Origin: Terebella lapidaria
Lineage: Eukaryota > Annelida > Polychaeta > Terebellida > Terebellidae
DNA: 64,000 bases
Reading direction: 5' to 3'
Assembly (NCBI GenBank): GCA_949152475.1
Contig: OX424569.1
Coordinates: 31,913,950 to 31,977,949, forward strand
Shown: positions 1 to 33,492 of the stretch, piece after piece
Position numbering within the stretch: position 1 is the first letter of the stretch
How the letters are laid out: each line of letters opens with the position of its first letter
The notes under the pieces: generated by a model
Database searches by the model: none
The model's input: only the letters and a program-made list of their open reading frames with translations
Told to the model about the DNA's origin: nothing
Made by a program: the position numbers and the translations under genes

Positions 1-1183
1 TCCATTTACGAAAGAATAGAAATCAGCTGTCAGGAATTTACATAGTTGAGCACAAATGGATACCGACAAACAGACAAATTCAAATTCCAAGACCGAATCC
101 ATGGAGGAAGTGTACAAGTTCAGTACAAGCAGTCAAATTCGAGGGATACTATCAGTATCATAGTCAGAGCCATGTGAATATCGCAGACACCCAGCCAGCT
201 GAGTCTGAGATCAGGTGCTCCGGAAAATTTAGCATCTCCCACGCCGCCAGGAACATAATGTGACTTTATTTAAAAACAAAAAGAACAACTTATCTTATAT
301 TGGCCGGAAAATTTCTGTGTACAAATATCCATAATCAGTAAAACATAATCAGTTACTACTTAGATGTACATGAACGTTGAAATATCTAACAAAAATAATA
401 TTAAACAATATAGCAATAATATTGTTCAAAAGTGTTTACACGTGTTTATATGACTCTAGAAGGTGTAAGAACAAACTAATTAACGGGTTAATTCAAACCC
501 TGTTAAGCGCAATACATCCAACGTTTCATGTCAAACACGAAACAGATATGAAGCACCACGTTTGGAATCACGTTTCCCATATTTACACTGCAATGAGAAC
601 GTGCTGGACATCGCCTGGACACAAATCATTAGTAATATTCCTGCACCTGGAATATGTCCTCATGTGGACAATATTTACTTGAGAAAATCGATTTACCTCG
701 TCCACAGAAGTGCCATGATTGCGATTCTTACTTTTAGTTGGAGGTTAGAGACAGAGTTGATGTGTTGACAGTTCCTATGCAAACATCGATCGACGATTGC
801 TGATAATTTACTGAGCAAATTTATTCCAGATGGTCCAGTATGGTTGATCAATGTATAAATATATGAAAATTGATGCTATCTAATGAAACATCTCACACAA
901 TATATAAACAGTCATGTTCTTACAGAAAACCCCGATTGTTGCTTGAGTTTATCCAATCTTCTTACAAGGATCTACTCTGCAACGGCTATGTAATTTGAAT
1001 CGTATTTTGTGATCATGAAGTAGGTCGAAAATCGACAAAATTTGTATTCTCATATCTTCGAAGTCAGTCAGTGCCAATGTAAGTATCAATCTGTTACCAC
1101 CAATACAGCCAATTTTTGATGATCGCACTAACAAACGTGAATAAATCTTATTGTGAGTTTGAACATACCTTGTGTGGTATTGT

Positions 1184-2296
1184 TAGCTCATCGGCTGAAA
1201 GCCATGGAGCAATTGGGGTTGATTGACACAGTGTCGGTGTCTGTCGCTCCCTGTTTTCCTGACTCATATCTTTCAGAAACTTCTCCGCCGAAAGCAGTTT
1301 TCCTATAGTCCCAAAACTTGGGATAGTGCTCAGTTATATTGTGGTCACCAAAAATGGTTAAAGATTTGCAAAAGTTCCAAGGCTTTCTAATGAAATTTAA
1401 CAAATGAATATCAGTTTCCTCATACTCGTGTGTATATACATACGGCTTGCGGGTGGAAAATCAGCGCATGCGCAGAGGGGATATTACGATTGCAAATGGT
1501 GATTGTTTACCATTGCATTTCGACCAGGAGACGGGATTTTTTGGATAACGGACCCTGTTTTGTTCGCTCGAAATACTTAATACTGGGTATTGATTATACG
1601 TCTATTATCAGGTCATAGCATTTTTGAAAGATACTCCTGTGTTTGGGGAATCATTTGTTATTACCTCCGATCTTATGTATTTGGAATTCTTGGGCAAGTC
1701 GGTTTGCGCAAGACAATCTTGGAATACGAAAGGTCAGAATGTGCACATTTTTGGAATGACCAAGTTTGCCCTGGACCTCCTCGAGATCGTCCTAATTTCC
1801 AAGAATGAAAATACAGCAATCAAATCAAATGTAACAATAACCAATATGTCACTAAAAAAAATATATTAGCTCATCGAATTGCCGCAAATTATATGTAAAC
1901 AATTTATAAAGTACAATTTATGGATTAAAATAACAATATTTAAAACACACAGGAGGTGGGGGTGATATTATGAGGTAATATATGTAGGATGCATCCCGTA
2001 CATGGTGACCTTCACGAAATTTGTAAATATTGGTCTTTGAATACAATTTTTAAAATTAGTGTAGCAAGGATATGAGGAATCATTATGGTGGCCTACATCT
2101 CTTGCTGACCCTGAACCTGACCCAAGATATTATTTGAAGAAGATCAAAATTAATTCTACCTCAAATGTGGGAATCGGTCTGTTAGTATTGTATTATAAGC
2201 ATATGTACATGATATAGGAGATGATATATGCACAACATATAATTGGGTGAAATATTATGGTCGTCTTCCGATGAGCTACATGACCCTTGGCCCTAT
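1184..2296. repeat. 1.1-kb insertion present in copy A only, with inverted TAGCTCATCGG motifs
   Basis: Copy B runs directly from GTGGTATTG into TTTTTACTATTGG (about 29790). In copy A these flanks are separated by about 1.1 kb. TAGCTCATCGG (1184-1194) is mirrored by CCGATGAGCTA (2268-2278), but about 18 further inserted bases follow the right motif, so a clean transposon end is not shown. Part of the insert (about 1550-1600, TTTTGTTCGCTCG) resembles 14830 and 39365, so it may be a composite rearrangement rather than one transposon. A perfect NRF1-type box GCGCATGCGCA lies near 1464-1474. No gene recognised. Confidence 0.45.
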
Positions 2297-2891
2297 GTTT
2301 TTTACTATTGGTATTGGAACACACAGGTGTTGGGATTATTGAGGGTGAATATTTTGATACAGTTGGGACTTAAACGCTGCTTTTGTACACGGTAAACTAA
2401 CAACTGAATATGCAGCCGGTTTGGACGAAATGTGCAAAAAAATTTATGCAAACCTTTTTCTGTAATGTTCCAATATAAATTATGTATATTCTCGAGCAAG
2501 ACTAAGTGAAGTGTAATATAATGCTGTTAAGAGATGCTACACATCACACAGATTATTGTTAGGACGGGCACTTGTTTGGTGTTCCTAAAAACATAAACAC
2601 TGTCTCATAACTTCATCGAGTAGCTGAACTTTTCTTGTCCAAGGAAATAGATTCCTAACAAAACATATCGCTTTTCTGAATGATTCTTCTGTTGTGTTGG
2701 CCCCTTTTTTCCCTCAAAGCCTAATAATCATCCACTATCTTCAAGATAATCTCCAAGACTGAAGATCAATAAGCAACGGAAATAGAACTGACCAGTGGGG
2801 TTAGCAAACTGAATGTTCATGTGTTTTTTATGCGGTGACGCTGGAAAGAAACATGCTTTCTAAAAATGTTCCCCCAATTACTACTCAATTA

Positions 2892-3250
2892 GGCCGTGTT
2901 TTTTTTTTCTTTGTTTCCCGTCATCGGGCGGGTGAAAATAGCAATTATTTTGAGAAAAAAAACACAAACTTTTTTGTTTTTTTCCCCCTCAAAAATGATG
3001 TTTTTCTAGCCCCAAAAACACAGAACTTCGTGAAGGATAGTAAATGGTTTCCATTTGCTGTTTCCTCTCTGTTATTATCAATAAAGTATTTAATAGTTCA
3101 GCAAATGGTCAAATGCAATTTATTTTACATTTTTGGCATGAGTTACTTTGTGAACAAAGATGGTATCGTGATGATAAACGTCTATGTTTTTTTTCTGTGT
3201 TCGTTTTTTTTTCCTGGCTGGCGGGTACAAAGAAAAAACACAACATGGCC
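2892..3250. mobile_element. Harbinger-like MITE with TTA target duplication
   Basis: A 359-bp insertion is absent from copy B, which reads straight through at about 34003-34020. Its ends are imperfect inverted repeats: GGCCGTGTTTTTTTTTTCTT at the left, and the complement of GGCCATGTTGTGTTTTTTCT at the right, followed inward by CCCG on both sides. The element is flanked by TTA (2889-2891 and 3251-3253). A 3-bp TTA/TWA duplication with GG-starting TIRs is the signature of PIF/Harbinger elements. It carries no transposase, so it is non-autonomous. A T-rich 181-codon open frame running through it is a by-product of the T-runs. Confidence 0.6.
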
Positions 3251-3883
3251 TTACGTGCAAAATACATGTTTTGTCAAGATTGAAAATTTCACTTTGTTGT
3301 TTCCTCATTTGTTGGAGCATGAGCTTCAACGCTTATGGTTCACAATTAGAATGTTCAGAATGCTAGTCCATTTTTGCTGATGAATAAACGCTATTTGCTC
3401 TTACCCCCGCCTGCCTGAATATATCATACTCTACGTTAACCAGTGCAGTACATGCCAGGCCCGGAAAATATGAGAATTTTTTTTGTGCTTACATTTCAGA
3501 TAGTCCTTTGTGTTCCATTGTTCAGTCTTGCCTAATGATACAATGTATCTTTCAGACTGAAGGTCATCTGTCGGATTACTGGTCAATCGTCCATACAAAT
3601 ATATCCATCCCGAATGACCAATGGGTTCATAGGTTTCAATGCTCATGTATATTAATGCAGTTGTGATGCGTCAGTGTTTGCGAGGGATGGGTTTATGTGG
3701 GAATTAGTGCAGACAATATCTTGTGAATACCAAGACTCAGAGTACCAACATTCAGGCTCTTTGATGACAACCATGAACATATATTTAATAATTTTGTCAT
3801 CACAGGTCTCAATGAATTTTGTTATCAGCTCATTTATAGTAGATATTGAGGAAGTTTGTCAATACTACTCTTCTTATTTTATG

Positions 3884-4546
3884 CTCTTGGATATTGAGGT
3901 AGAAGATGGCGGCCACACAAACCCACAGCAACACATTTGATCTGCAGTTTTCCATAGATATCATCACATTCTAGTCTCGCAGGATAGTTGAAACTAGCAA
4001 AATGGACATATTGACTTACCTGGATAATAAGGTGGTATCTGGTGTATTGCCTGGACTCATAATTCATGTATGGGTGGACCCTATCATCTGAATATACTAC
4101 ATTATCGCCCACTTTGAGAATGTTCTGTTTACATATTGCCAATGACAGTTTACTGCCAATTTAACAAACAAAATTTCGTCACGCATGAACAATTCCATCT
4201 TTGTCTGGCCTCCAAGTGCAATTTGTTGGTCCAACACCTCCCAGAACCAGCTCTTGCCGGTCACTACTGATCCTACTCCATTAGTCCTCGTGAGTAATGG
4301 ATTAAGCAACTATAATCTACGTCTCACTGTGGTCCTTTGAAGCGTTGAAGCACTAAGAGAAAAGTGACTCAACCCATCATCCATCGACTACAACTTCGTC
4401 CAAGGGGATTAGAGCTAGCGACCCACACAACATGGTTATGTATCAGTGAATTGTGATAATCCACTCTCCAATCCATGGCGTGACTGTGGTACATATGATG
4501 TTCGTAGCTTATCATCTGTCATCAAGCCTGCACAGACAATCAAAAA
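3884..4546 (+). promoter_or_regulatory. LINE 5' UTR with YY1-like box at its start
   Basis: This 663-bp stretch lies between the inferred LINE 5' end and the ORF1 ATG and is absent from the paralogous empty site in copy B. AAGATGGCGGCC at 3903-3914 begins about 20 nt inside the element and matches the YY1 core (AAGATGGCGGC). In mammalian L1, a YY1 site at a comparable position fixes the transcription start. No TATA box is apparent. An internal promoter here is inference. Confidence 0.55.
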
Positions 4547-6022
4547 ATGGGCAAAAGAAAGGGGAAAAAATCCCCTGAATCAAAAGGTGGAAAATTCAAA
4601 CTATATGCTGTGGCAAAAGGCAATGACAAGTGGGGTATATTTACTCAATGGAGTGCCTGTTCCAAACAAGTGACAAATGTCAGTGGTGGTGTGTTTAAAG
4701 GTTTTCAGACCTTATCAGAGTGTGTTGACTTTCTAATCTTCAACAACAGCGAATGTAAATCGGATGGTGACATTACAGTTTATGGGCCTAGGTACTCTGA
4801 ATGGTCACTCATTGAGTATATCACCCACATACAGAACACGGACATTGACGTAATCGGACCAGAGCTAGTGGGGAAATACAAGGTTGACATCCAGATCAAC
4901 GAGAGCAACAGCGATGATGATGATGTTCCTAGGGACATCACTGACATCCTCACAAATGGAGCCCTGAACGACAAAATTGACGACACCATTGACAAATCTA
5001 CAACTAATGACACCTTGAACGACAGCTTAAATCACGTGATGATGTGTTTGACACCTCCCGAGACCTCAGTCCCAGCTGAAGCAGCAAGAAAAAAATCCAC
5101 ATCCTCCAACATAGGTACCCAAACTGACCTATTCTCACATGATAAATTGGCCGCAGCTATATTCGAAATCGAGAACCAAATGACTCTCCTGACGTCAACA
5201 AACTCCGGCCTACTATCTGTTATGAAAGAACAGTATGAATCCAAAATTGCACAACTGGAGAATGAGCTGCGAGAGACGAAACAAGGTTATGAAGCCATAT
5301 CAAATCAGAATGACCTGACACGCTACGAAGACTATTCTGAACGAATGTCCATTATGGAGCATAAACTCGTAGCTCTTGAATCCAAGTTGGCCAATGTATC
5401 CACGGAGCTGAAAACAACAGAAGAAGTCTTGGCTGTCAAAGTAACAGAGATAAACTTCTTGAGGTCTGAACTGCAACAAATAAGTCTCAGAACGAATGCT
5501 TTAGACGTTAAAACGGAGTTTGTGAAACAGCTCATCAACCAACAGCTCTACTCGGAAGCAGTGAAAAAAGACCAAGGTCAATGCTCTGACATGATCAAAG
5601 GTCATCACTACCCAGGACCTGAACAGCATCCTAAACCATCAACAGAGACTCGACACAACCACCCACGAGTGTTGCCATTCCAGGGAGCTGGGTCTCCACT
5701 CTCCAATTTCTATGGAATAAAAAGTGGATTACATATCTTCAACGAAATCTTCGACTGTGCTGAAAAAGCATACCAGTTCGCGAAGGCTCGATATCTGGGA
5801 GCAAATGAAGATCATCTCCGCATGATCAAGGAAGCTGATCACCCAGCGCAAGCTAAACACCTGGGTGATGAAGTCCGTTCCAATCAGGGCTGGGAATCTG
5901 AGAAGGTTGCTTACATGGGGAGAATTCTCGATGCCAAAGTTGAAGCCTGTCCAGAATTCCGAAGAACTCTCATTGATAGTGGCAACGCCATATTAGCGGA
6001 AGCTACGTTTAACTCTTTCTGA
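4547..6022 (+). CDS. LINE ORF1, upstream part: hybrid-binding domain, coiled coil, NADAR domain (ends at in-frame TGA)
   Basis: The frame gives 491 aa from an ATG in good context (A at -3, G at +4). Residues 15-63 match the N-terminal RNA:DNA hybrid-binding domain of RNase H1, also known from caulimovirus viroplasmin: FKLYAVAKG, GIF, a W-x2-C spacing (W35, C38), V42 and FKGF (50-53). An acidic linker follows (SDDDD, 122-126). Residues about 200-320 are Leu/Glu/Lys-rich and probably form a coiled coil used for multimerisation. From residue 374 the sequence matches NADAR/YbiA: RVLPFQGAGSPLSNFYG (374-390), the Glu-containing CAEKAYQFAKA (404-414), then HPAQAKHLG and R444. Family members cleave N-glycosidic bonds, including ADP-ribosyl-guanine. 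The stop at 6020-6022 falls inside the NADAR domain, which continues in the same frame downstream, so this is probably one ORF broken by a nonsense change. Its role in the LINE is unknown. Confidence 0.88.
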   Translation: MGKRKGKKSPESKGGKFKLYAVAKGNDKWGIFTQWSACSKQVTNVSGGVFKGFQTLSECVDFLIFNNSECKSDGDITVYGPRYSEWSLIEYITHIQNTDIDVIGPELVGKYKVDIQINESNSDDDDVPRDITDILTNGALNDKIDDTIDKSTTNDTLNDSLNHVMMCLTPPETSVPAEAARKKSTSSNIGTQTDLFSHDKLAAAIFEIENQMTLLTSTNSGLLSVMKEQYESKIAQLENELRETKQGYEAISNQNDLTRYEDYSERMSIMEHKLVALESKLANVSTELKTTEEVLAVKVTEINFLRSELQQISLRTNALDVKTEFVKQLINQQLYSEAVKKDQGQCSDMIKGHHYPGPEQHPKPSTETRHNHPRVLPFQGAGSPLSNFYGIKSGLHIFNEIFDCAEKAYQFAKARYLGANEDHLRMIKEADHPAQAKHLGDEVRSNQGWESEKVAYMGRILDAKVEACPEFRRTLIDSGNAILAEATFNSF

Positions 6023-6733
6023 GGAACCGGGCTATCTGTGGTGGATACTCGAAATCGTCATCCAGACCAATGGCCTGGGGCAAACACACTAGGTTTGCTG
6101 CTGATGTCCTTGCGCAAGAAGCTCACCCAAAATCATACTTACCACACCAACCATCACTCTCCACCCTCCCCCAGTTCCCATGCTGACACTGTACACCGGA
6201 ACACACCAACACCACGTGTCTTGATCTTGGGAGGATCCAATACCAGAAACATATCCAGCGAGAAATTTGCCACCAAACTCCATGCGACCATTAACTGTAC
6301 AGCCTACACATGCAACGATGCGGATGGTCTCCTGGCGAAGTACCAAAACTCGCAACCTGACGCCATTGTCCTACATCTTGGCACGAACGATGCAAAAAGA
6401 GACAATAACCCCAGCTATGTATGCGCCGACATGATCGTCTCTGTGGTGAACAAGGCCCTGAGACTTTTCCCGAGAACAAAGGTTATTCTCTCTCCCATAC
6501 TGCCTATACAGGACAGGAGGCTGGACATCAAGCGAAAAGATATAAACAGTTTCGTAAAAGAAAAGCTTCCTAACTCACCGAGACTATCATTAGTTCAGTG
6601 TTATAACATATCTTCTATCAGCAATGGCATGTACAGACATCTGACTGATGATATACATTTAACTACAGGTGGTACCAAAATGTTAGCGGCAGCATTTAAA
6701 CGAGCCGTGCACCGTTCCATCTACAACTACTGA
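6023..6733 (+). CDS. LINE ORF1, downstream part: end of NADAR plus SGNH esterase-like domain
   Basis: This is the same reading frame as the upstream part, open from just after the TGA to TGA at 6731-6733; there is no ATG near its start. The first residues carry the C-terminal NADAR pattern: GTGL directly after the stop, then W-x-G-x-N (W509, G511, N513) and LGLLLMSLRKKL. A Ser/His/Pro-rich linker leads to an SGNH hydrolase fold. Block I is LILGGSN (Ser564; GGS replaces the usual GDS), block III is GTND (Asn614), and block V is DDIH (Asp701, His704), numbered as one continuous ORF1. Esterase domains are known in ORF1 proteins of CR1 and L2 LINEs, where they have been linked to membrane or RNP association. 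All catalytic residues appear present. In this copy it could be made only by readthrough or internal initiation. Confidence 0.82.
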   Translation, partial: GTGLSVVDTRNRHPDQWPGANTLGLLLMSLRKKLTQNHTYHTNHHSPPSPSSHADTVHRNTPTPRVLILGGSNTRNISSEKFATKLHATINCTAYTCNDADGLLAKYQNSQPDAIVLHLGTNDAKRDNNPSYVCADMIVSVVNKALRLFPRTKVILSPILPIQDRRLDIKRKDINSFVKEKLPNSPRLSLVQCYNISSISNGMYRHLTDDIHLTTGGTKMLAAAFKRAVHRSIYNY

Positions 6734-6771
6734 TATGTTGCAGACCGTTTAACGAATCACGTAAATTATGC

Positions 6772-9700
6772 ATGGAAATGGCTGATCATACTAATATGAA
6801 TTGCATGTATATATGTGGTATCTGTGCACGTCATATTGAAACACACATGTTGACATGTACTCAATGTGATACTCATTTTCATAAAGTTTGCTCAAATACT
6901 GATGTTGTCGACAATGATGAGTGGGTCTGTTTAGACTGTGAGTGTGACATTTTACAATCTTCCGACGAAAGCGAGGACCATACTTATAGCTCTGATGACT
7001 CTGACTTTATTACCAATAAAGGTCTGACACTGAATTTCGAGCCGTTCGCTCATACAGAGGTCAGAGATCACACTTGGGGTGCTGATATAGATCCTGACAA
7101 CAATTGGTACAAAGATTTGCAAGTTGATAGCTTATATTACGATTGCAATCAACTGAAAGAACTGTCAGCTGAGCCTGGCGAATCGAAAGATGCATTTTCT
7201 ATCATACATTTCAATTGTCGAAGTATATATAGTAACTTCGAAAAGATGAAAAATATATTAAATTTATATCCCCAAAATTTCAGCGTCGTCGCAGTGACTG
7301 AGACTTGGTTACATGAGGAAGATTGTGATTTGTTCCAATTACCTGGATACTCGGCATCATATAATTGTCGTGAGAATAAGAGAGGTGGTGGTACTGCCAT
7401 TTTTGTTCGCTACGATTTGCCCTTTGAATTAATATTGGATGTAAATAGTTTTGATAGTCATGGAGTGGAGATGACGATGGTGGATTTATCATTGTCTAAC
7501 CACAAGCGCATCGCGATCGCCTGTATTTATAGATCACCTGGGATGCAAATGGTTGCTTTTAACGAGATGTTCAGATTATTTCTAAAAAAGTACAACAAAC
7601 GTCGACACAGTTTATACATATGCGGTGATTTTAATATCAATTTACTACAGTACGAATCACATGCAGATACGAACGATTTTGTCAACAATTTATACAGTGA
7701 AGGATTTTATCCTACGATAACAAGACCGACGCGAATAACACATCATAGTAACACATTGATTGATAATATATTTACAAATGAACGAAACTCGTGCCTAAAA
7801 AGCGCCGTCCTAATGTGTGACATAAGCGATCACCTACCAATTTTACTCTTTGTTGATTATGGGTTGATGAAATCGAAAACAGCTAAAGAATATATATATA
7901 CCAGAGAAGTGAGTGAGCACAACATTGCAATTTTAAACAACAATTTGAAATCTACTGATTGGGCAGAAGTTTATTATGAAAATGATGTAAATAGTGCTTT
8001 CTGTAAATTTAGCAAACTTTTCGGAGAAATGTATGATAAATGTTGCCCCGTCACGGTTAAAACTAAATATAGTAAAAAACGAGATAACAAACCTTGGATA
8101 ACACCCTCGCTCATCAATGCATGCAAAAAGAAAAATGCACTTTATAAGCAGTTCTTGAAGTGCAGAACTAAAGAATCAGAAGATAGGTACAAGCGATACA
8201 AAAATAAATTGACACATATATTAAGACGTTGTGAAAGGGATTATTATTCTGATAAACTTGAGGAATGTAAGTGTGACATTAAAAAAATGTGGAAAACACT
8301 CAATTCAATAACAGGGAGGAGGGGCGTGTCAGCGAGTTATCCTTCTGAATTTATTTCGGATGGAACTAGGGTATCCGAAAGCAAAGAAATTTCAAATGGT
8401 TTTAACGATTTTTTTGTTAATATTGGGCCGAATTTAGCGAACAATATATCAAATTGTGACACGAGCAATTTCACTACATATCTAGATGAGAAAGATAAAA
8501 ACAAAAACACAATGTTTCTTGAACCTTGTAGTGAAACAGAAATTCTAAATATAATAAAAAGATTCAAAAGTAAAAGCTCTAAGGGGTATGATGGTATTGA
8601 CATGACATTAGTGAAGAAAACAAGCTACTCGATAGTCGGCCCTTTAACTTATTTAATCAACAAATCGTTTGAAATGGGAATCTTCCCTGATAATTTTAAA
8701 ACTGCGCGAGTAATCCCATTATTCAAGTCTGGAAATCCAAGCTCGTTTACCAATTACCGCCCAATCTCCTTATTGACACAATTTTCAAAAATTATCGAAA
8801 AAGCCTTTAATTTAAAGCTTGTCGCATTTCTGGATTCTAAACAAATATTGAAATCATGTCAGTACGGCTTCCGAAAACAGCACTCAACTTCCATGGCATT
8901 AATTGACCTGGTTGAAGAAATAACCAACGCGCTTGACAAATCTAGAATAAGTGTGGGAATTTTCATAGATTTAAAAAAGGCCTTTGACACCATAGATCAC
9001 GATATACTTATACAGAAACTACATTATTACGGGATACGGGGTAAAGTGAACGATTGGATAGCAAGTTATCTAACAAACAGAAAACAATTTGTGTCCTTTA
9101 AAAATACAAACTCTGATTTGCAAAATATCAAATGCGGGGTTCCGCAAGGATCAATATTGGGACCCACTTTATTTCTCATTTACATTAATGATCTAGCCAA
9201 TGCATCAAAATTACTTAAATTTGTTCTGTTTGCTGACGACACTAACCTACTTTATTCAGGAGAAAACGTTGTCGACACAAACCGTGAAATTTCTAGTGAA
9301 ATGTCAAAATTGAATAAATGGTTCAAAAGTAACAAACTATCATTAAATTTATCTAAAACCAATTACATGGTGTTCGGAACCAGAAAAGATACAGAAACCA
9401 TTCGCATTAACATAGATGGATGTAATATTGATAGGGTAAACTCAACAAAATTTCTCGGCGTGCACATAGACAGCAAAATAACCTGGAAAGTTCATATAAA
9501 GAACCTAATGAATAAAGTCTCGAAAAACATAGGTATTATTTATAGAACCAAACATTTATTAAACAAACATGCATTACGAACCTTATATAATACACTCATT
9601 ATGCCGTACCTAACATACTGCTGTGAAATTTGGGGCAACAATTACCACTCAGGACTTACACCTTTAACAATACTGCAAAAAAAAGCTATCAGAATTATTA

Positions 9701-10059
9701 GCAGATCAAACTTCCTAGATCACACTCAACCGATATTTTCTCAGTACAAGGCCTTGAAACTAGATGATTTAATAAAACTTAAAACTATGGAAATTATTTA
9801 CAGAGCTCTCAAAGATGAATTGCCAAATAGATTACAAGAAATAGTAACTAATCAACAACGCAATCATGAATACAATACCAGAGGAAAACATACTCTCAAA
9901 AGTTACCTCTGTAGAACAAATTACAAAAGAATGACAACTATAAATGTGGGATTGCTAGGGTGGGGCAGTTTACCGAAAGACATTATAAATAGTGAACATT
10001 TGCTCAAATTCAAACGTACCTACAAGAAAACATTAATTGAGCAATATCATTGTAACTAA
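6772..10059 (+). CDS. LINE ORF2: PHD finger, APE endonuclease, reverse transcriptase
   Basis: Intact 1095-aa protein that starts 38 nt after ORF1, in a different frame. Residues 15-56 form a PHD finger with Cys4-His-Cys3 ligands (C15, C18, C29, C32, H37, C40, C53, C56; W51 before the last pair). An acidic Ser/Asp/Glu stretch (62-79) follows. The APE-type endonuclease spans about 142-360, with HFNCRS (146-151), TETWL (Glu177), YRSP, GDFNIN (Asp286, Asn288) and SDH (Asp353, His354) all intact. The reverse transcriptase covers about 640-900: YRPISLL, FIDLKKAFDTIDH (Asp733), GVPQGSILGP and the catalytic FADD (822-823). The thumb and C-terminal region follow to 1095. The protein would nick target DNA and copy the LINE RNA by target-primed reverse transcription. 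No stop or frameshift is seen, so it could be active. A PHD finger could read histone tails and guide insertion, which is inference. Confidence 0.97.
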   Translation: MEMADHTNMNCMYICGICARHIETHMLTCTQCDTHFHKVCSNTDVVDNDEWVCLDCECDILQSSDESEDHTYSSDDSDFITNKGLTLNFEPFAHTEVRDHTWGADIDPDNNWYKDLQVDSLYYDCNQLKELSAEPGESKDAFSIIHFNCRSIYSNFEKMKNILNLYPQNFSVVAVTETWLHEEDCDLFQLPGYSASYNCRENKRGGGTAIFVRYDLPFELILDVNSFDSHGVEMTMVDLSLSNHKRIAIACIYRSPGMQMVAFNEMFRLFLKKYNKRRHSLYICGDFNINLLQYESHADTNDFVNNLYSEGFYPTITRPTRITHHSNTLIDNIFTNERNSCLKSAVLMCDISDHLPILLFVDYGLMKSKTAKEYIYTREVSEHNIAILNNNLKSTDWAEVYYENDVNSAFCKFSKLFGEMYDKCCPVTVKTKYSKKRDNKPWITPSLINACKKKNALYKQFLKCRTKESEDRYKRYKNKLTHILRRCERDYYSDKLEECKCDIKKMWKTLNSITGRRGVSASYPSEFISDGTRVSESKEISNGFNDFFVNIGPNLANNISNCDTSNFTTYLDEKDKNKNTMFLEPCSETEILNIIKRFKSKSSKGYDGIDMTLVKKTSYSIVGPLTYLINKSFEMGIFPDNFKTARVIPLFKSGNPSSFTNYRPISLLTQFSKIIEKAFNLKLVAFLDSKQILKSCQYGFRKQHSTSMALIDLVEEITNALDKSRISVGIFIDLKKAFDTIDHDILIQKLHYYGIRGKVNDWIASYLTNRKQFVSFKNTNSDLQNIKCGVPQGSILGPTLFLIYINDLANASKLLKFVLFADDTNLLYSGENVVDTNREISSEMSKLNKWFKSNKLSLNLSKTNYMVFGTRKDTETIRINIDGCNIDRVNSTKFLGVHIDSKITWKVHIKNLMNKVSKNIGIIYRTKHLLNKHALRTLYNTLIMPYLTYCCEIWGNNYHSGLTPLTILQKKAIRIISRSNFLDHTQPIFSQYKALKLDDLIKLKTMEIIYRALKDELPNRLQEIVTNQQRNHEYNTRGKHTLKSYLCRTNYKRMTTINVGLLGWGSLPKDIINSEHLLKFKRTYKKTLIEQYHCN

Positions 10060-10697
10060 TATAGTATTCATACTCGTATCCGCGTGTGATTCATATGATT
10101 CATTTAATATTATTTATCGATTGTCAAGCTAGCTAATGTATTGTTAAGTAGGTATTTATTACATGACATATGTATGTGTGTGTGTGTCAAGTTGTCAAGT
10201 TAGTTATATGTTAAGTATGTATTTATTACATGACATATGTATGTGTGTGTGTGTGGGGGGGGGGGTAGTTTGGTGTGGAGGTATGTGTGTGGGTGTCTGT
10301 GGATATGGGAGGGAAGATGTGAATGGGTGGGTGGTGCAGGTGTAGGTGAATATATGTGTGTGTAGGTGGGTGTGGGTGTATGGGTGAACCTGCGCATTGG
10401 GTGTATGGAAGAAAGGGTAGTCAATTATATGTTGAATTGGTGAGTTAGGTGTTGTTGCTGTGTTTTTTTTTTTTTTTTTTTTTTTTTTTCTCAATTAAAT
10501 CTGTGTTGTATTTGAATTGTGGTGGTGGTGTTGGGGCTTTGGGATGGGAAACTTTATGTCTTAGTGGGAAAGGTCAGGGAATACCATGTACATAAGTTTT
10601 GCAAACTTCAGGTATTCACCTTTCAACATGTACACTTATATATTGTCTTAATTGTTATTGTTGAATAAACTGATTGATTGATTGATTGATTGATTGA
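10060..10697 (+). other. LINE 3' UTR with low-complexity tracts and polyadenylation signal
   Basis: The stretch runs from the ORF2 stop to the insertion border. It holds a 67-bp direct repeat (about 10144-10210 and 10211-10276) containing TTATTACATGACATATGTATG and a (TG)n run, a G10-type run, a T27 tract (10463-10489), AATAAA at 10664-10669 and the (TGAT)n tail. Short open frames on both strands here come from the TG/CA microsatellite and are not genes. Confidence 0.8.
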
Positions 10698-10699
10698 TG
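10671..10699 (+). repeat. (TGAT)n microsatellite tail of the LINE
   Basis: About seven TGAT units follow AATAAAC directly and abut host sequence CCTAGTGATCC. Microsatellite 3' tails in place of poly(A) are typical of CR1/L2-group LINEs and are used in priming during integration. Confidence 0.85.
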
Positions 10700-13600
10700 C
10701 CTAGTGATCCTCAACATACATGTACAGGTGTGTTGTTTTGGGCGAACAAAGATTCTGTTTTGGACTCTGAAATTCTGCAACGTTACATAAGCTGTTACAA
10801 GATGCCTGATATTGTAATAATCACAAGAAAGCAGAAGGGAATATAAATACATGACAGTCGGTACAATTAGCACAATTGCCTATTTGGGAACGCTATTATG
10901 AAGTGTTGAGTAATGGAAGGCTGGTTAAAATGGATGCATAATTATATTTTACTATTGTTTCGTCCATGTTAGGTTATACGGAATATAGTTAATAACATTT
11001 TGATTTCATTGTCATATATTTATTGACGCGTAATACATATACCTGTATTAGTATATGGTTCGATCAATTAATCAATCAATCAACCAATCAATCAATCAGT
11101 CAATAGTATATGTTGTGAATGTTTACTATGCACCTCGTGACATGCTGTTCAGTATCACATTGAGAAGTGACGTGGTGATGGGCCACTGTCTATATCACAC
11201 CTACCATGGGTGCTTCCAGAGAATTCAATTTAATTTTTCCGAACTACTCAGTAGCAGCATGTGGTCATCATAAAGTGACAGGTTCTCAATACATCCAAGA
11301 CAGAATACTTACCCCATCCCTCGTCGCTCTAGATGGCACGATTCAATCCATCACACAGGGTATTGTATACTCCAACTCGATATTCTTACACGTGTAAAGA
11401 AGTGCAATTTAATTGAATCTATTCAAAGCCTCTCTTGAGATCAGCTCTCCGATCAGTGTATTGTAACAAGGAATGCCTGAAATATTTCATCATGTGTGGT
11501 CGGTGTTCAAGAAACAAAATATCCATGATATTTCTTATAATATCATGTAAATCTGCTGCGTGATTTAAGGAACACCCCAAGATCAGCTTGACAACACATG
11601 ACTTTGTATGATATATGTCACAGTTGGAAAGTCACCAAACGCAGGTAGGATAAGCGACAATTATCTCAAGAATGTACTGTCGCTTTTAGTTTGAATGAGG
11701 CTATGAAACGATGTGTTATTTTGCTCTCGAAATATCATTACTCCAGTGATTCTGATATTTAATGACTGCTGACAATTACACTAACCTTTCTAACCATAAA
11801 TAAATCGCACGGAATAAAGTAATATCATTCAGATTCACCCTGTACACTCGTTCATGCACACGTTGAATTATGACAATCATGCCAAGTTAAATTATCAGTA
11901 ATGTTCCCGCACCTGGACATGTCCTTGTATTGATAATATTTACTCAGAAGAATCAATATTACATTCAAATAAGTGTGGTTTGAATATGAACATTCTGGCA
12001 AGGTAGAGTGAGTGAGAGGTGACATGTATTTAACAGTGTATATGCTAACATCGAGGAACTCTCATGTGCTAGCTTCTTAATATAGGCGGATAAGGGCATC
12101 CTAGTAATGTATAATGGGCATGATTAAGTATAATGTTATTCGTTATTTTGTATGACCCACCTTGCATTTAAAGTGTTATTGATCAGTCTTTTTACGACAA
12201 TCTTCTTGGGTCATGTATAATATCATTTTATCATTTGTAACTTCTTTTTCAGTCTTTCGGTCTTCATTGGAATTAATCGATCATGCGAGATCGCCATGAT
12301 CTATTACTGTTATGAATGGATGCGAATTCAGTATGCTATGTCATCGTTAGGAAGCGGACATGTACAGTTGTCCGACTTCCAAACCTAATGGTTTTGGAAT
12401 GAACAACATTTGTAGCAAAATATCATCATATTGTAGTTTATACGTGCGAGTAAGTAATCTTAACTAAAAAATGAAAAGCAAACATATACAGCCTCTTTCT
12501 TCTCATGTTGCAATATGACTTATGTATAACCCCACAGTACAAACCAATGGAGTGGAAAATTGTCCCTCTAGTCAGAGTGTTATCTTGCATTATATATGAT
12601 ACACTTTCCGGTAACACCAATTTTATTGTTATGTCAGTATTGTTCAGAAGAGTGGTCAGGCGTCAAATTTTAATACTGACACGAGAATGCCCTACTCATT
12701 TATTTTTATTGTGCACGTGGACATTTCGAGTCCACCATCCAACGTAAATAATGACAGTATTAGGAAACGTTTTTTTTTTTCTTCTATGACCCCTGTCCTG
12801 TGTTTCGCTCTTCAATAGTTTCTGATTGTCCTGAATGTCCTATTCTTCATTATAGGTCCATTTGCCATATGAAGATACCGCTCCGCTCTAATCAGTGGCG
12901 ATATTAGAGTTTATATGGATATGTGTTATGCATCGTCTATATCATGTACGAATGCTATGTTTGTAAGGTTTCCTGTTGTTAAGACTAGTAACTGACTGAT
13001 GAAGCTCTAACGATGAATATTTCACGGAACTCATTATTTTGTTCATATATTGAGGAAGTTGACACCACTGTGTAATGCATTTACATCTCCCAGACCTAAC
13101 AGTAATTTGCAATAGTTTTATTTATCATCAACTTTACTTGGTTTAGCTCCAACCTTTAAAATCTCAACACGACGGCGGAGAACTGAAATGTATTAAGTGT
13201 CACTATAATCCGTTACAATTTTAGCACATATGCAGGCACTGGAACTACGGTTGTATGATATAACTACATAATATACAATGATTACACCATTATTGTTATA
13301 TTCCAGGCATTGAGGTGATTTTACTACATTTTCTGATCGATTCATGGCTGATTCTAAAATTGGTTTGTGATAGGGAAAGATCATATATGTCCAATTCCAC
13401 GATCCTCATAATCATTATAATACACCATGTACATGACACGGTATGCAAAAATCTGGTATTATCTTGGGAGCGACACTCCAACGCCGACAATTAGAAAATG
13501 AAATGCATATTATCATGCCTGCTTTGACAGCAATAACACCCGGAAATCGACAATTATAGAACAAAGTTCACATTACTCACAATCCAAAACCCGGACTGAT

Positions 13601-15724
13601 GCTGATGTTATCATGTGTATTTCATTTCCTAATTGTCAACGTTGAGGTGTCGTTTCCACGGCAAGCCCATATTTCTCGGACATACTGTTTATACGCATGA
13701 TGTATAATGATGATTATGATGAGCGTGTACATTTATCTGATCTTTTCGTATCACACATCAAATTCGCAATCAGTCAGGATATCGGTTAGAAAACGTACTC
13801 AGTAAAGTCGTCTCAGTGACTGGAACGAGGGATACAATTGAGCGATAAGGTAACATTGATAAATTACAGTGATACCTGGATAACCATCACGTATTACAAA
13901 ACTATTGTCATTATGGTGCAAATAGTATCATTACCCTTATTTGTTATCACCTAATCCCTCAAATTACAGGTGTGTATCGATCAACAACTGGTATGTTTTG
14001 GAGACATGGGGTGAAAGGGGATGACTATGTCCTGTTGCATGGATATTACCTGATGTGCAATCTACGATAACGATATGATAAAAACAGGATTGGAGAAATA
14101 TTCACGCCAGCCCAGACCAAGTCGGGAATACAATGGTGTAATGTTGAATAATTGAAGAATAGCAGGCGGGTTTTTGTTCACACTATGCCCCTGGTTCTCA
14201 GTTTTACATGTACATTCCTGGAACTGTTGTCATCACTATTGCAATGCTTTCCCGAGCAACACATATACTTCACACGCTTCTCGTACTTTGGTCCAGTATC
14301 GTCAGAAAAGGTGACATTTCCATACACATGTATATGATAGGTTAGCTGCTAGTACTGATGCACCAAGGTTTTTTCTTGATATAACAGAAAACACAGTTAT
14401 TGGGTAAATTGAGGTTGTGTACACATTTAATCAGTCTTTGTGATGGCACGATATGTGTCGCCAATTACATCAGCCAATATTGCATAACATTATGATGGAC
14501 ACAATAAAACCCAAGTGAATTTGTCTATACTATTACTTTGTCTGAAATGAAGATAATTTGAGTTCGTATATACATCAGATGGGAACATTCATCCAATAAC
14601 CATTCAAATATTTATGAAGTCCAAACCAAACCCCTTAATATTTTGTACCTTCAACAACTTTCACTGTAACCAACATGTCAGTAACCGTCCATATACGATG
14701 TTTTCATACAGTTAATATACTGACACTGATATGTATTGTTAGTTAGTATACAATTAGTATACTGCTAGTATAAGTATACATTTATCGATTTTGCCTGACA
14801 CTGGACTTTATGATTTGAAAATGGACTCGGTTTTGTTCGCTCGGAATACTTTGTACTTGTGAATTGGTTCCATGTTTTTTCTATGTTTTCAATGATATGA
14901 AAGAAACTGCTACATATTATTCCTTTTCGAAATTTCGAGTTCAGGATGCATACTTGTCATGACAGTATTTTGCACGTATTCCGTGCTTCAGGGGCGACAA
15001 GTACATCTATCAACCTGTGATAAACAAAGCTCAAACATCCCCGTGGTCAGTCGATATCGACAAGTTTGCTCAATAAATAATGCTATGTGTACCTTATTGT
15101 TAAAACGTGGACATTTCCACAACACATGCATTCCCTTTTCATAGTCCAGATGGCCACCCTTCAATTTTACTCACCATTTCACAACTTTGTTTGCATGCCA
15201 AAGAATACCCAAATTACAGCATTCAATATATTACATATAATATGTGTCAAATTTGCCGAAAATAAAACCTATTTCAGGTTAGCAACAGAAACCTTCAATA
15301 ACATTATATAGTTACATGTACAACATTCATAATTAAATATTATATCCGAATCATAATCATGATATATCATAGTACAAACGGCTTTTATTATGAATCGTCA
15401 AACCCCTCTGGAATAGCAATACAATCTATAACAACCATCGAGATATTTCACCGTGAGTTCAAGATCGAACCTGAGACAATAAGCGACATCAATAATGTGC
15501 AGCACATGTATAAATGTTTGTTTGTACCTGTCCATGCATTGCTTCATACTCAGGACGAGTTCTCGGTGTGGCCAGAACGTGGGCGTTGCTGATATATCAA
15601 AGTCTTTGGATTATTTTAGGAAATTTGATTTGGTGTGTAATCATGATCTATGCAGCTTTCAATAGATTTCCCGACCAATGTTTCCATAAATTGGTTCATC
15701 ATCAGATAATATTACTTGCTTAAA
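10698..15724 (+). repeat. Segmental duplicate copy A, part right of the LINE
   Basis: Colinear with copy B from about 34650 to 40241, sharing CCTAGTGATCC at the start and ACTTGCTTAA at the end. B has a 535-bp TTAA-flanked insertion (37018-37552) whose empty site is here at 12979-12982, and a small extra segment at about 36030-36110. No gene is supported; open frames are short and interrupted in one or other copy. A (TCAA)n tract at about 11063-11103 is expanded relative to B. Confidence 0.75.
11063..11103. repeat. (ATCA)n simple repeat
   Basis: Repeats of ATCA/CAAT lie within copy A. The matching position in copy B (about 35005-35025) has only a short degenerate version. Probably a microsatellite expansion; there is no LINE 3' UTR next to it. 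Confidence 0.7.
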
Positions 15725-32264: not shown

Positions 32265-33492
32265 ATTTGAGGGTGGTTTTTTCCCTTCAAAATGATGTAT
32301 TACTGACGCCGATAAAATTAATGACTGTTGGGTAATACTGTACAGAAGTGCGATATCGTTTTCACCCCAAATCGTAGATTCCAGCCAGTAAGAATGGCAA
32401 TTAGCGCAACAATTCGGACTGTGACCCCATATTTCTTTGGTTTTATTTGTAAGGGTAGTTTTTCCCCTTAAAATGGTGTATTACTCACCCCGACAAAACT
32501 GATGATGGTTGGGTAATACTGTACAGAAATGCGATATATATACTCGTTTTCCCCCTGAATCGTAGGTCCCGGTAAATAAAAATGCCAATTAGCGCAACAA
32601 TTCAGACCGTGAACCCATATTTTCTTGGTGTTATATGTAAGGGTAATTTTTCTTTTCAAAATGATGTATCACTCATCCTTATAAAACTGGTCGTTGTTGG
32701 GTGATACTGTACAGAAGTGCGATATATACTTGTACTTCCCCTAAATCATAGATTCCGGCAATTAAAATGGCAATTAGCGCAATAATTCGGGCGGTGACCC
32801 CATATTTTTTTGGTTTTATATGTAAGGGTGGTTTTTTCCCTTCCAAATGCTGTATTACTCATGCCGATAAAATTGATAACTGTCGGTAATACTGTACAGA
32901 AGTGCGATATATTCTCGTTTTTCCCCTAAATCGTAGATTTCGGCAAGTAAAAATGGCAATTAGCGCAACAATTCGGACGGTGACCCAATATTGTTTTGGT
33001 TTTATATGTAGGGGTAGTTTTCTACCTTCAAAATGATGTATTACTCATGCCGATAAAATTGATAACTGTTCGGTAATACTGTATAGAAGTGGGATATATT
33101 CTCGTTTTTCCCCTAAATCATAGATTTCTGCAAGTGAAAATGGCAATTAGCGCAACAATTCGGACGGTTACCCAATATTTTTTTGGTTTTATATGTAAGG
33201 GTAGTTTTCTACCTTCAAAATGATGTATTACTCATGGCGATAAAATTGATAACTGTTCGGTTATTCTGTACAGAAGTGCGATATATTTTTGCTTTTCCCG
33301 TAAATCGTAGATTTCTGCAAGTAAAAATGGCAATTAGCGCAACAATTCGGACGGTGACCCAAAATTTTTTTGGTTTTATATGTAAGGGTAGTTTTCTACC
33401 TTCAAAATGATGTATTACTCATGTTGATAAAATTGACGATTGTCCGGTAATACTGTATATAATTGCGATGTACTTGTATTTTCCCTATACTC
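32265..33492 (+). repeat. 186-bp tandem satellite, about 6.5 copies
   Basis: GGCAATTAGCGCAA (with minor variants) recurs at about 32396, 32584, 32769, 32955, 33142 and 33329, spaced 185-188 bp. Each unit also has AATGATGTATTACTCATG, a GTAATACTGTACAGAAGTGC block and TTTTGGTTTTATATGTAAGG. The last unit is truncated at about 33490. It lies wholly within the TTAA-flanked insertion. Confidence 0.9.

Follow-up and report, generated by a model that had tools for sequence, protein, structure and literature searches.

Organization of the element

A 64,000-nucleotide stretch of Terebella lapidaria DNA (contig OX424569.1; hereafter the window) contains a long interspersed nuclear element (LINE) whose first open reading frame (ORF1) joins a hybrid-binding domain of the RNase H1 N-terminal type (HBD), a NADAR domain and an SGNH/GDSL esterase domain, followed by an ORF2 with a PHD-like finger, an endonuclease (EN) and a reverse transcriptase (RT). 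The window element is a mutated copy of such a PHD-EN-RT LINE. Judged from sequence comparison, its NADAR domain is not a chance insertion in ORF1, as diverged families of the same genome share the domain set. ORFs were listed over window positions 1-14000, and the domain scan covered those of the LINE. The features of the element are as follows.

4547..6022, + strand: first part of ORF1, 491 amino acids, closed by an in-frame TGA (ORF listing)
4598..4723, + strand: HBD (Cauli_VI, PF01693), ORF1 residues 18-59 (Pfam, E 3.2e-12)
5135..5536, + strand: putative coiled-coil-like region, about residues 197-330 (weak matches, below cut-off, to coiled-coil type families)
5696..6124, + strand: NADAR domain (PF08719), residues 384-487 before the stop and the remainder after it (Pfam, E 9.5e-13 and 0.0017)
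6020..6022, + strand: in-frame TGA within NADAR, at pocket residue W133 of 8BAU; both near-identical siblings are open here
6023..6733, + strand: ORF1 frame after the stop, 236 amino acids, same reading frame
6212..6730, + strand: SGNH/GDSL esterase domain with GGSN, GTND and DDIH blocks (Lipase_GDSL_2, E 1.5e-7)
6772..10059, + strand: ORF2, 1095 amino acids, with PHD-like finger, APE-type endonuclease and reverse transcriptase (ORF listing, Pfam)
6814..6939, + strand: PHD finger at the ORF2 start (Pfam, E 0.00037; PDB 2miq, E 0.0037)
7207..7833, + strand: endonuclease domain (Pfam, E 5.8e-13)
8749..9468, + strand: reverse transcriptase domain (Pfam, E 5.5e-37)
10671..10698, + strand: 3′ end of the element, a (TTGA)n repeat (TRF); the same repeat ends the sibling on contig C9

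The first-pass annotation, made from the sequence alone, had read 4547..6733 as one ORF1. This region does form a single reading frame, but it is broken by the TGA, which lies inside NADAR. The HBD, NADAR and SGNH domains are located where that annotation had placed them. The HBD scored 46.9 bits against a cut-off of 21, and hence belongs to PF01693; phmmer searches matched it to the solved structures of RNase HI (N-domain, 1qhk, E 0.0015) and of Ribonuclease H1 (3bsu, E 0.038). The Pfam scan found no RNase H catalytic domain in ORF1. PF01693 comprises the RNase H1 HBD and the caulimovirus P6 domain. The Y, W and first K of the 3bsu domain, which we take to act in hybrid binding, are kept in the alignment; in fam1-4, the families described below, G or A replaces the other K of the KK pair. 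The part of NADAR before the stop scored 49.2 bits (cut-off 35.1) and the last part was recognized in the same frame past the stop; with the stop read as X, the whole stretch matched a profile of nine relatives from the same genome at E 1.5e-48. The Ser, Asn and Asp-His blocks of the SGNH domain are present in the window and show small changes in fam2-4, which assigns ORF1 to the esterase type (type IV). Its matches in PDB included 5b5l/5b5s (E ~6.5e-5) and the LINE esterase 4c1b (E 0.086), and the Lipase_GDSL_2 scores of relatives were 41.2 (P0004) and 44.1 bits (P0014), above the cut-off, and 31.9 bits (P0003), below it.

The element was identified as a LINE by the APE endonuclease and RT in ORF2 and by dispersed, 5′-truncated copies with a short 3′ repeat tail. 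Its RT is far from that of L1 (L1 ORF2p match, E 2.6e-17), and the PHD and esterase types described in PMC4120745 suggest a CR1/L2-like assignment; here and below, papers are cited by PMC number. For the C9 copy, the best word shared by the flanks as a candidate target-site duplication was of 7 bases, in unfitting places.

Sibling copies and diverged families

The genome searched (G000; 761.6 megabases, 438 contigs) is the one to which the window belongs. The ORF1 query (P0001) matched at least 88 places, many of them NADAR alone; the NADAR matches read individually are a sample, comprising L001-L008, about ten chosen places and the siblings. Two near copies of the window element, ~99% identical to it, carry ORF1 and ORF2 as a unit. 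The C9 sibling is 98.9% identical in DNA to window positions 5132-10685 and the C11 sibling 99.6% identical over the part compared; both are 5′ truncated, starting at the equivalents of window positions 5132 and 5200, respectively. Because both are open where the window has its TGA, this stop is private to the window among the three copies. It had been anticipated that siblings without NADAR would speak for a single chance insertion; the siblings carry it.

More diverged families, with ~40% identity over ORF1, retain the HBD-coiled coil-NADAR-SGNH order; as far as the fetched DNA extends, EN and RT come next. Family 2 (fam2: L012, L013, L014) has a 726-codon open frame in each copy; fam3 consists of L015/L040 (a single place, 788 codons) and the partial copies L016, L024 and L045; and fam4 consists of L018 and of L017 with L023, apparently two halves of one copy ~7 kilobases (kb) apart. 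Related broken copies include L020, L021, L022, L025, L027 and L028, as well as L019/L026, which are without SGNH. Short pieces aside, tblastn identities of these families to the window were ~51-61% for HBD, 44-54% for NADAR and 42-49% for SGNH, and 25-27% for EN and ~28-40% for RT. NADAR was matched at E 9.6e-21 or better in the eight relative ORFs scanned with Pfam. Because diverged relatives in the same genome keep it, the domain mix is suggested to be useful to the elements.

Two observations concern broken copies. L019 (G000:C13:29835602-29839246), which lacks SGNH, differs from fam2 by a nonsynonymous distance (dN) of 0.095 in NADAR vs 0.018 in HBD and 0.012 in RT, and is a mosaic or deleted copy. 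At G000:C7:22690000-22752000, several broken HBD-NADAR-SGNH copies are clustered within ~60 kb.

NADAR pocket residues and selection

Residues of the NADAR pocket were compared in an alignment (A1) of 16 NADARs, namely 15 from the present genome plus P0013, a protein-database entry; L019 was left out because of a stop in its translation and was kept in the trees with X. The profile of A1 matched two solved NADARs, 8bau (E 1.1e-31) and YbiA 2b3w (E 5.5e-25). The former is a Phytophthora NADAR with ADP-ribose, for which contact roles are given in PMC11543638. By 8BAU numbers, E43, K50, K75, W89, E125 and W133 are kept in the four rows of HBD families (L041, L012, L040, L023), and all 16 rows share E43, W89 and W133; the TGA of the window copy occupies the W133 position. 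E125 is replaced by His in the NADARs of L046 and L047, a replacement that phage NADARs are likewise reported to have (PMC11543638), and activity was retained by a NADAR of an E. coli phage (PMC11125620).

Selection was estimated by Nei-Gojobori counts over 29 pairs, some being the same places twice. The ratio of dN to synonymous distance (dS) for NADAR was 0.23 between the window and L012 of fam2 (dN 0.47, dS 2.05), 0.09 for L001/L004 and 0.19 for L040/L024, the last with few changes; in nine other deep pairs dS was saturated, with dN of 0.28-0.49. A stop inside NADAR was listed for 6 of the best 150 scored genome matches, leaving 144 without, a count biased by the choice of the best 150 among 973 candidates.

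Module combinations in other LINEs

The domains of the window ORF1 recur in other combinations among the sampled loci, for which open frames were read and Pfam scans and SGNH and NADAR profile searches were made. L046 and L047 have NADAR then SGNH, lack an HBD and are followed by the EN-RT ORF2s L065 and L066, respectively. A PHD finger in L065 was considered and is not claimed as shared: its ORF2 start is Cys/His-rich by eye, yet Pfam found no PHD there at E 0.01. In L043, L048 and L049, NADAR is joined to a zinc-knuckle-like ORF1 (by eye) in which the profile search did not find SGNH, and L043 is followed by an L1-like ORF2, L067, close to L1 ORF2p (E 1e-71). L050 has an L1-type ORF1 (by eye) with NADAR, then a separate SGNH frame (P0019, E 2.2e-12), then the EN-RT ORF2 L068; the SGNH frame, at L068:3-611, lies between the NADAR-bearing ORF1 and an ORF2 that groups with the L1-like L067. 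L001-L008, L044 and L051 have an L1-type ORF1 (by eye) with a C-terminal NADAR, L002 being the NADAR part only, and no SGNH in the DNA fetched.

The ORF2 of L001 (L064) starts with a 2A-like motif by eye, and such motifs, with HPGP or NPGP endings, were seen at the ORF2 start of two NADAR LINEs (L064 near 1498-1750, L042 near 1-700). L042/L069 has NADAR upstream of a 2A-EN-RT ORF2 and no SGNH. This NADAR LINE (L042 + L069, G000:C8:822600-830500) is apparently inserted in a Gypsy pol, with an accidental fused frame of 812 codons. A Gypsy Pol-NADAR fusion was rejected for L042, because Gypsy pol resumes in L069 beyond an intervening 2A-EN-RT LINE (by eye).

The HBD gave 51 matches among 123 scored candidates in the genome, 13 of the 51 at places of the named NADAR-bearing ORF1 elements. 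L077 (L077:244-2520; G000:C12:17212400-17215200) has the three domains of the window in a different order, namely HBD, SGNH and NADAR (E 5e-11, 4e-11 and 9e-20), with a zinc-knuckle-like C-terminal end by eye. The NADAR profile had no match in nine of the 38 other HBD loci, those that were read individually (L071-L076, L078-L080). Six of the nine (L073-L076, L078, L080) have an RRM-like C-terminal part by eye, although Pfam named no RRM in the two of these six that were scanned (P0016, P0017). L079 (L079:110-2014; G000:C3:13289700-13292200) has HBD, SGNH (24.0 bits, under the cut-off), KH and a CCCH zinc finger; downstream of its ORF1, an EN-RT-like frame (L082) was seen by eye.

Phylogeny of ORF1 and ORF2

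The first NADAR tree had 38 rows, after 21 same-place or near-identical loci and matches spanning fewer than ~130 profile positions had been dropped; six further near-identical rows were dropped for the second. The p-values of the approximately unbiased (AU) tests refer to groups chosen after the trees had been seen and, for NADAR, to short rows. The HBD families formed one clade (12 rows, support 98/97), to which the zinc-knuckle type attaches first (94/83) and L046/L047 next, so that HBD families, NADAR-SGNH elements and the zinc-knuckle type constitute a single clade of 17 rows (99/97). L077 lies within the same larger clade (98/96) and its union with the HBD families was not rejected (p 0.25), its place being unsure because of a long branch. 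The L1-type NADARs occupied two positions within a group (21 rows, 99/97) that also holds the NADARs of phages and plasmids. A single clade of all sampled own-genome NADARs, as expected from one capture, was rejected weakly (p-AU 0.014); a clade of the seven L1-type rows (p 0.08) and one of the large clade with the L1-type rows other than L042 (p 0.064) were not rejected.

ORF1 was probably exchanged between LINE lineages, because its tree disagrees with that of ORF2. By ORF2 the window element pairs with L065 (100/99), apart from fam2 and fam3, with which it could be forced to group only at p-AU 0.0009; by ORF1 it belongs with fam2-4, and a forced union with L046, the ORF1 that accompanies L065, was rejected (p 1e-4 for NADAR+SGNH, 4e-5 for NADAR). 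Likewise, L046 and L047 pair in ORF1 (100/99), whereas a pairing of their ORF2s was rejected (p 7e-11). L067 and L068 group in the ORF2 tree (100/100). In EN, dN was 0.86-1.04 between the window and fam2-4 and 0.30-0.38 among fam2-4; in NADAR the corresponding values were 0.43-0.49 and 0.36-0.44. Long-branch warnings apply to L066 with L067 in the ORF2 tree, to L046 and L047, to L077 with L046/L047, and to L066, L082 and L083.

Relation to known systems

NADAR in a LINE ORF1 is already in print, which narrows what is new in the observation of the first-pass annotation; the combination of HBD, NADAR and esterase was not found in the open-licence literature searched. PMC12477816 (2025), the only paper found with NADAR in retrotransposons, describes NADAR for several Crassostrea gigas Tx1 LINEs, in ORF1, and for Gypsy elements of Ectocarpus, in Pol. 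The window element resembles these in having a YbiA-class NADAR in a retrotransposon protein, in ORF1 for LINEs; the excerpted text of PMC12477816 does not mention an HBD or SGNH esterase for them. The elements with ORF2s L067 and L068 may be of the kind of the oyster Tx1 NADAR LINEs, because L067 is close to L1 ORF2p and groups with L068. The window RT, in contrast, is only 22-24% identical to these possibly Tx1-type elements over the RT core.

Like the type IV ORF1s of CR1/L2 elements such as zebrafish ZfL2-1 (PMC3905857, PMC4120745), the window ORF1 has a putative coiled coil followed by SGNH, upstream of an ORF2 with APE endonuclease and RT, although the sequence match to the ZfL2-1 esterase (4c1b) is weak. 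Schneider et al. (PMC3905857) state that no RepBase esterase ORF1 has an RRM or other structural RNA-binding domain, a generalization from which the window ORF1 departs by its RNase H1-type HBD and NADAR. Metcalfe and Casane (PMC4120745) found esterase ORF1s confined to the L2 and CR1 groups of vertebrates. Neither of the two texts contains the words NADAR or RNase H.

As a member of the NADAR superfamily, which includes YbiA (2b3w), the Phytophthora protein (8bau) and DarT1-linked NADAR antitoxins, the window domain is recognized by its profile match and by most pocket residues; it differs from these members in being fused in a LINE ORF1 and in the Asp that its HBD families have at R79. NADARs, eukaryotic ones included, take ADP-ribose off guanine (PMC11543638), and those in polyproteins of animal RNA viruses have been proposed to undo host ADP-ribosylation (PMC9503650). 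Nematode SNA-3, which carries NADAR domains, is an essential protein of trans-splicing (PMC9303266), and the roles of animal NADARs have been termed unclear (PMC11125620). Protein database searches with P0001 and with the NADAR region of P0003 found no relatives elsewhere, and the NADAR of L012 alone found one short NADAR protein (P0013). No relatives were confirmed in genome contigs (query P0013) or viral contigs (query L001 NADAR), in collections whose animal content is not stated in every case. By tblastn, NADARs were found in phage and plasmid records, which were taken as comparison rows, with no LINE among the rows examined.

Proposed function of ORF1

We tentatively propose, at somewhat less than an even chance, that the ORF1 protein (ORF1p) escorts RNA and bears an additional enzyme module; it would coat RNA and hybrid intermediates and remove ADP-ribose-type adducts from them. 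The coiled coil would make ORF1p a multimer, and the N-terminal HBD would keep it on double-stranded parts of the element RNA and on the RNA:DNA hybrid of target-primed reverse transcription. NADAR, as a YbiA-class N-glycosidase, would free the guanines of RNA, cDNA or hybrid from ADP-ribose-type adducts, or remove related damaged nucleotides, such that template and product might stay copyable under the action of a putative host ADP-ribosyltransferase. The SGNH esterase may serve a membrane or lipid role, as proposed for other LINE esterases, or an ester role. What the sequences support in this proposal is that the domains are present, linked to ORF2 and repeated in diverged families, that most pocket residues are kept, and that the ORF1 and ORF2 trees disagree. 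The interpretation of the first-pass annotation is partly supported: a LINE ORF1 has this domain set, kept in diverged siblings along with most pocket residues; protection from a host ADP-ribosylating defence would be a possible purpose. In a broader version, which we regard as speculative and improbable, ORF1 would be a platform for erasing ADP-ribosylation, in which NADAR removes base-linked ADP-ribose, SGNH, which recurs alongside it, removes ester-linked marks and HBD aims both at the RNA:DNA hybrid, and lineages would trade modules in response to a host that restricts retrotransposition through ADP-ribosylation of the intermediate.

Several results weigh against the proposal, whose main weaknesses are that Asp replaces R79 and that no host enzyme is known. 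R79, a phosphate contact, is Asp in all four HBD-family rows, R93 is K or Q in these four and D130 is N in two; these changes may weaken ADP-ribose binding, or the domain may have another substrate. The substrates of YbiA itself are riboflavin intermediates. A Scabin-like guanine-modifying transferase of the host (PF22596) was not matched, a negative that is uninformative because the profile matched no control genome either. HBD or SGNH is absent from some NADAR LINEs. The profile checks that had been called for put HBD and NADAR over their cut-offs, but the window SGNH, at 32.5 bits, falls 0.4 bit below the 32.9 of Lipase_GDSL_2, and the window PHD, at 20.9 bits, is below the Pfam cut-off of 24. 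Similarly, the call for a conserved NADAR under purifying selection was answered in part: diverged families keep it at ~50% identity and the window/L012 ratio is low, but dN/dS is near 1 for L012/L019 (1.14), L023/L018 (1.15) and L027/L028 (0.97), which are broken or very close copies, and 0.51-0.61 for fam4/fam5 pairs, which are partly decayed.

A rather unlikely alternative is that NADAR persists as a module for binding nucleic acid or nucleotides and helps ORF1p hold RNA, its catalysis lost or irrelevant. Such a role agrees with the position of NADAR beside binding-type modules in ORF1 (HBD, or a zinc knuckle seen by eye), with Asp in place of R79 and with His in place of E125 in L046 and L047, while the retention of E43, K50, E125 and both tryptophans in the four HBD-family rows, and of E43, W89 and W133 throughout A1, argues against it, as does the occurrence of His at E125 in phage NADARs together with the activity of an E. 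coli phage NADAR (PMC11543638, PMC11125620). We also consider it unlikely that the targets of NADAR are small ADP-ribose derivatives or RNA ends linked to NAD (caps, repair products), in which case it would shield the element from an NAD or ADP-ribose signal rather than repair its nucleic acid. Soluble ADP-ribose derivatives or RNA-processing by-products have been proposed as viral NADAR targets (PMC9503650), and processing of RNA intermediates has been suggested for transposable-element NADARs (PMC12477816); however, PMC9503650 favours macromolecular targets for eukaryotic RNA viruses, and the fusion of NADAR to a domain of nucleic-acid-binding type in the families of the window favours a nucleic-acid substrate.

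That the domain set is a neutral passenger, NADAR having been captured once and carried along by LINE lineages, appears distinctly improbable. The 17-row NADAR clade means that a single ancestral capture could cover the HBD, NADAR-SGNH and zinc-knuckle elements, and the few close pairs with dN/dS near 1 fit neutrality; yet NADAR has kept ~50% protein identity at saturated or near-saturated synonymous distance, the great majority of the best-scored matches are without a listed stop, albeit in a biased sample, and the rejection of one clade for own-genome NADARs points to more than one capture. An artefact of assembly joining or chance similarity, to which the stop within the window NADAR might lend weight, has a negligible probability: it is refuted by siblings with the same arrangement in independent insertions on other contigs, and NADAR is matched with even lower E values in the relative ORFs than in the window.

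If ORF1p does act as an escort protein that removes ADP-ribose-type adducts, retrotransposons would carry an enzyme that undoes ADP-ribosylation, implying that hosts use nucleic-acid ADP-ribosylation against mobile DNA. The element also supplies an esterase ORF1 with a known nucleic-acid-binding type of domain, and the occurrence of ORF1 modules (HBD, NADAR, SGNH, KH and others) in several combinations in one genome makes each role testable by comparison.

Other features of the window

Apart from the element, positions 32270-33469 of the window contain a 187-base unit repeated 6.5 times in tandem, with 85% matches (TRF).

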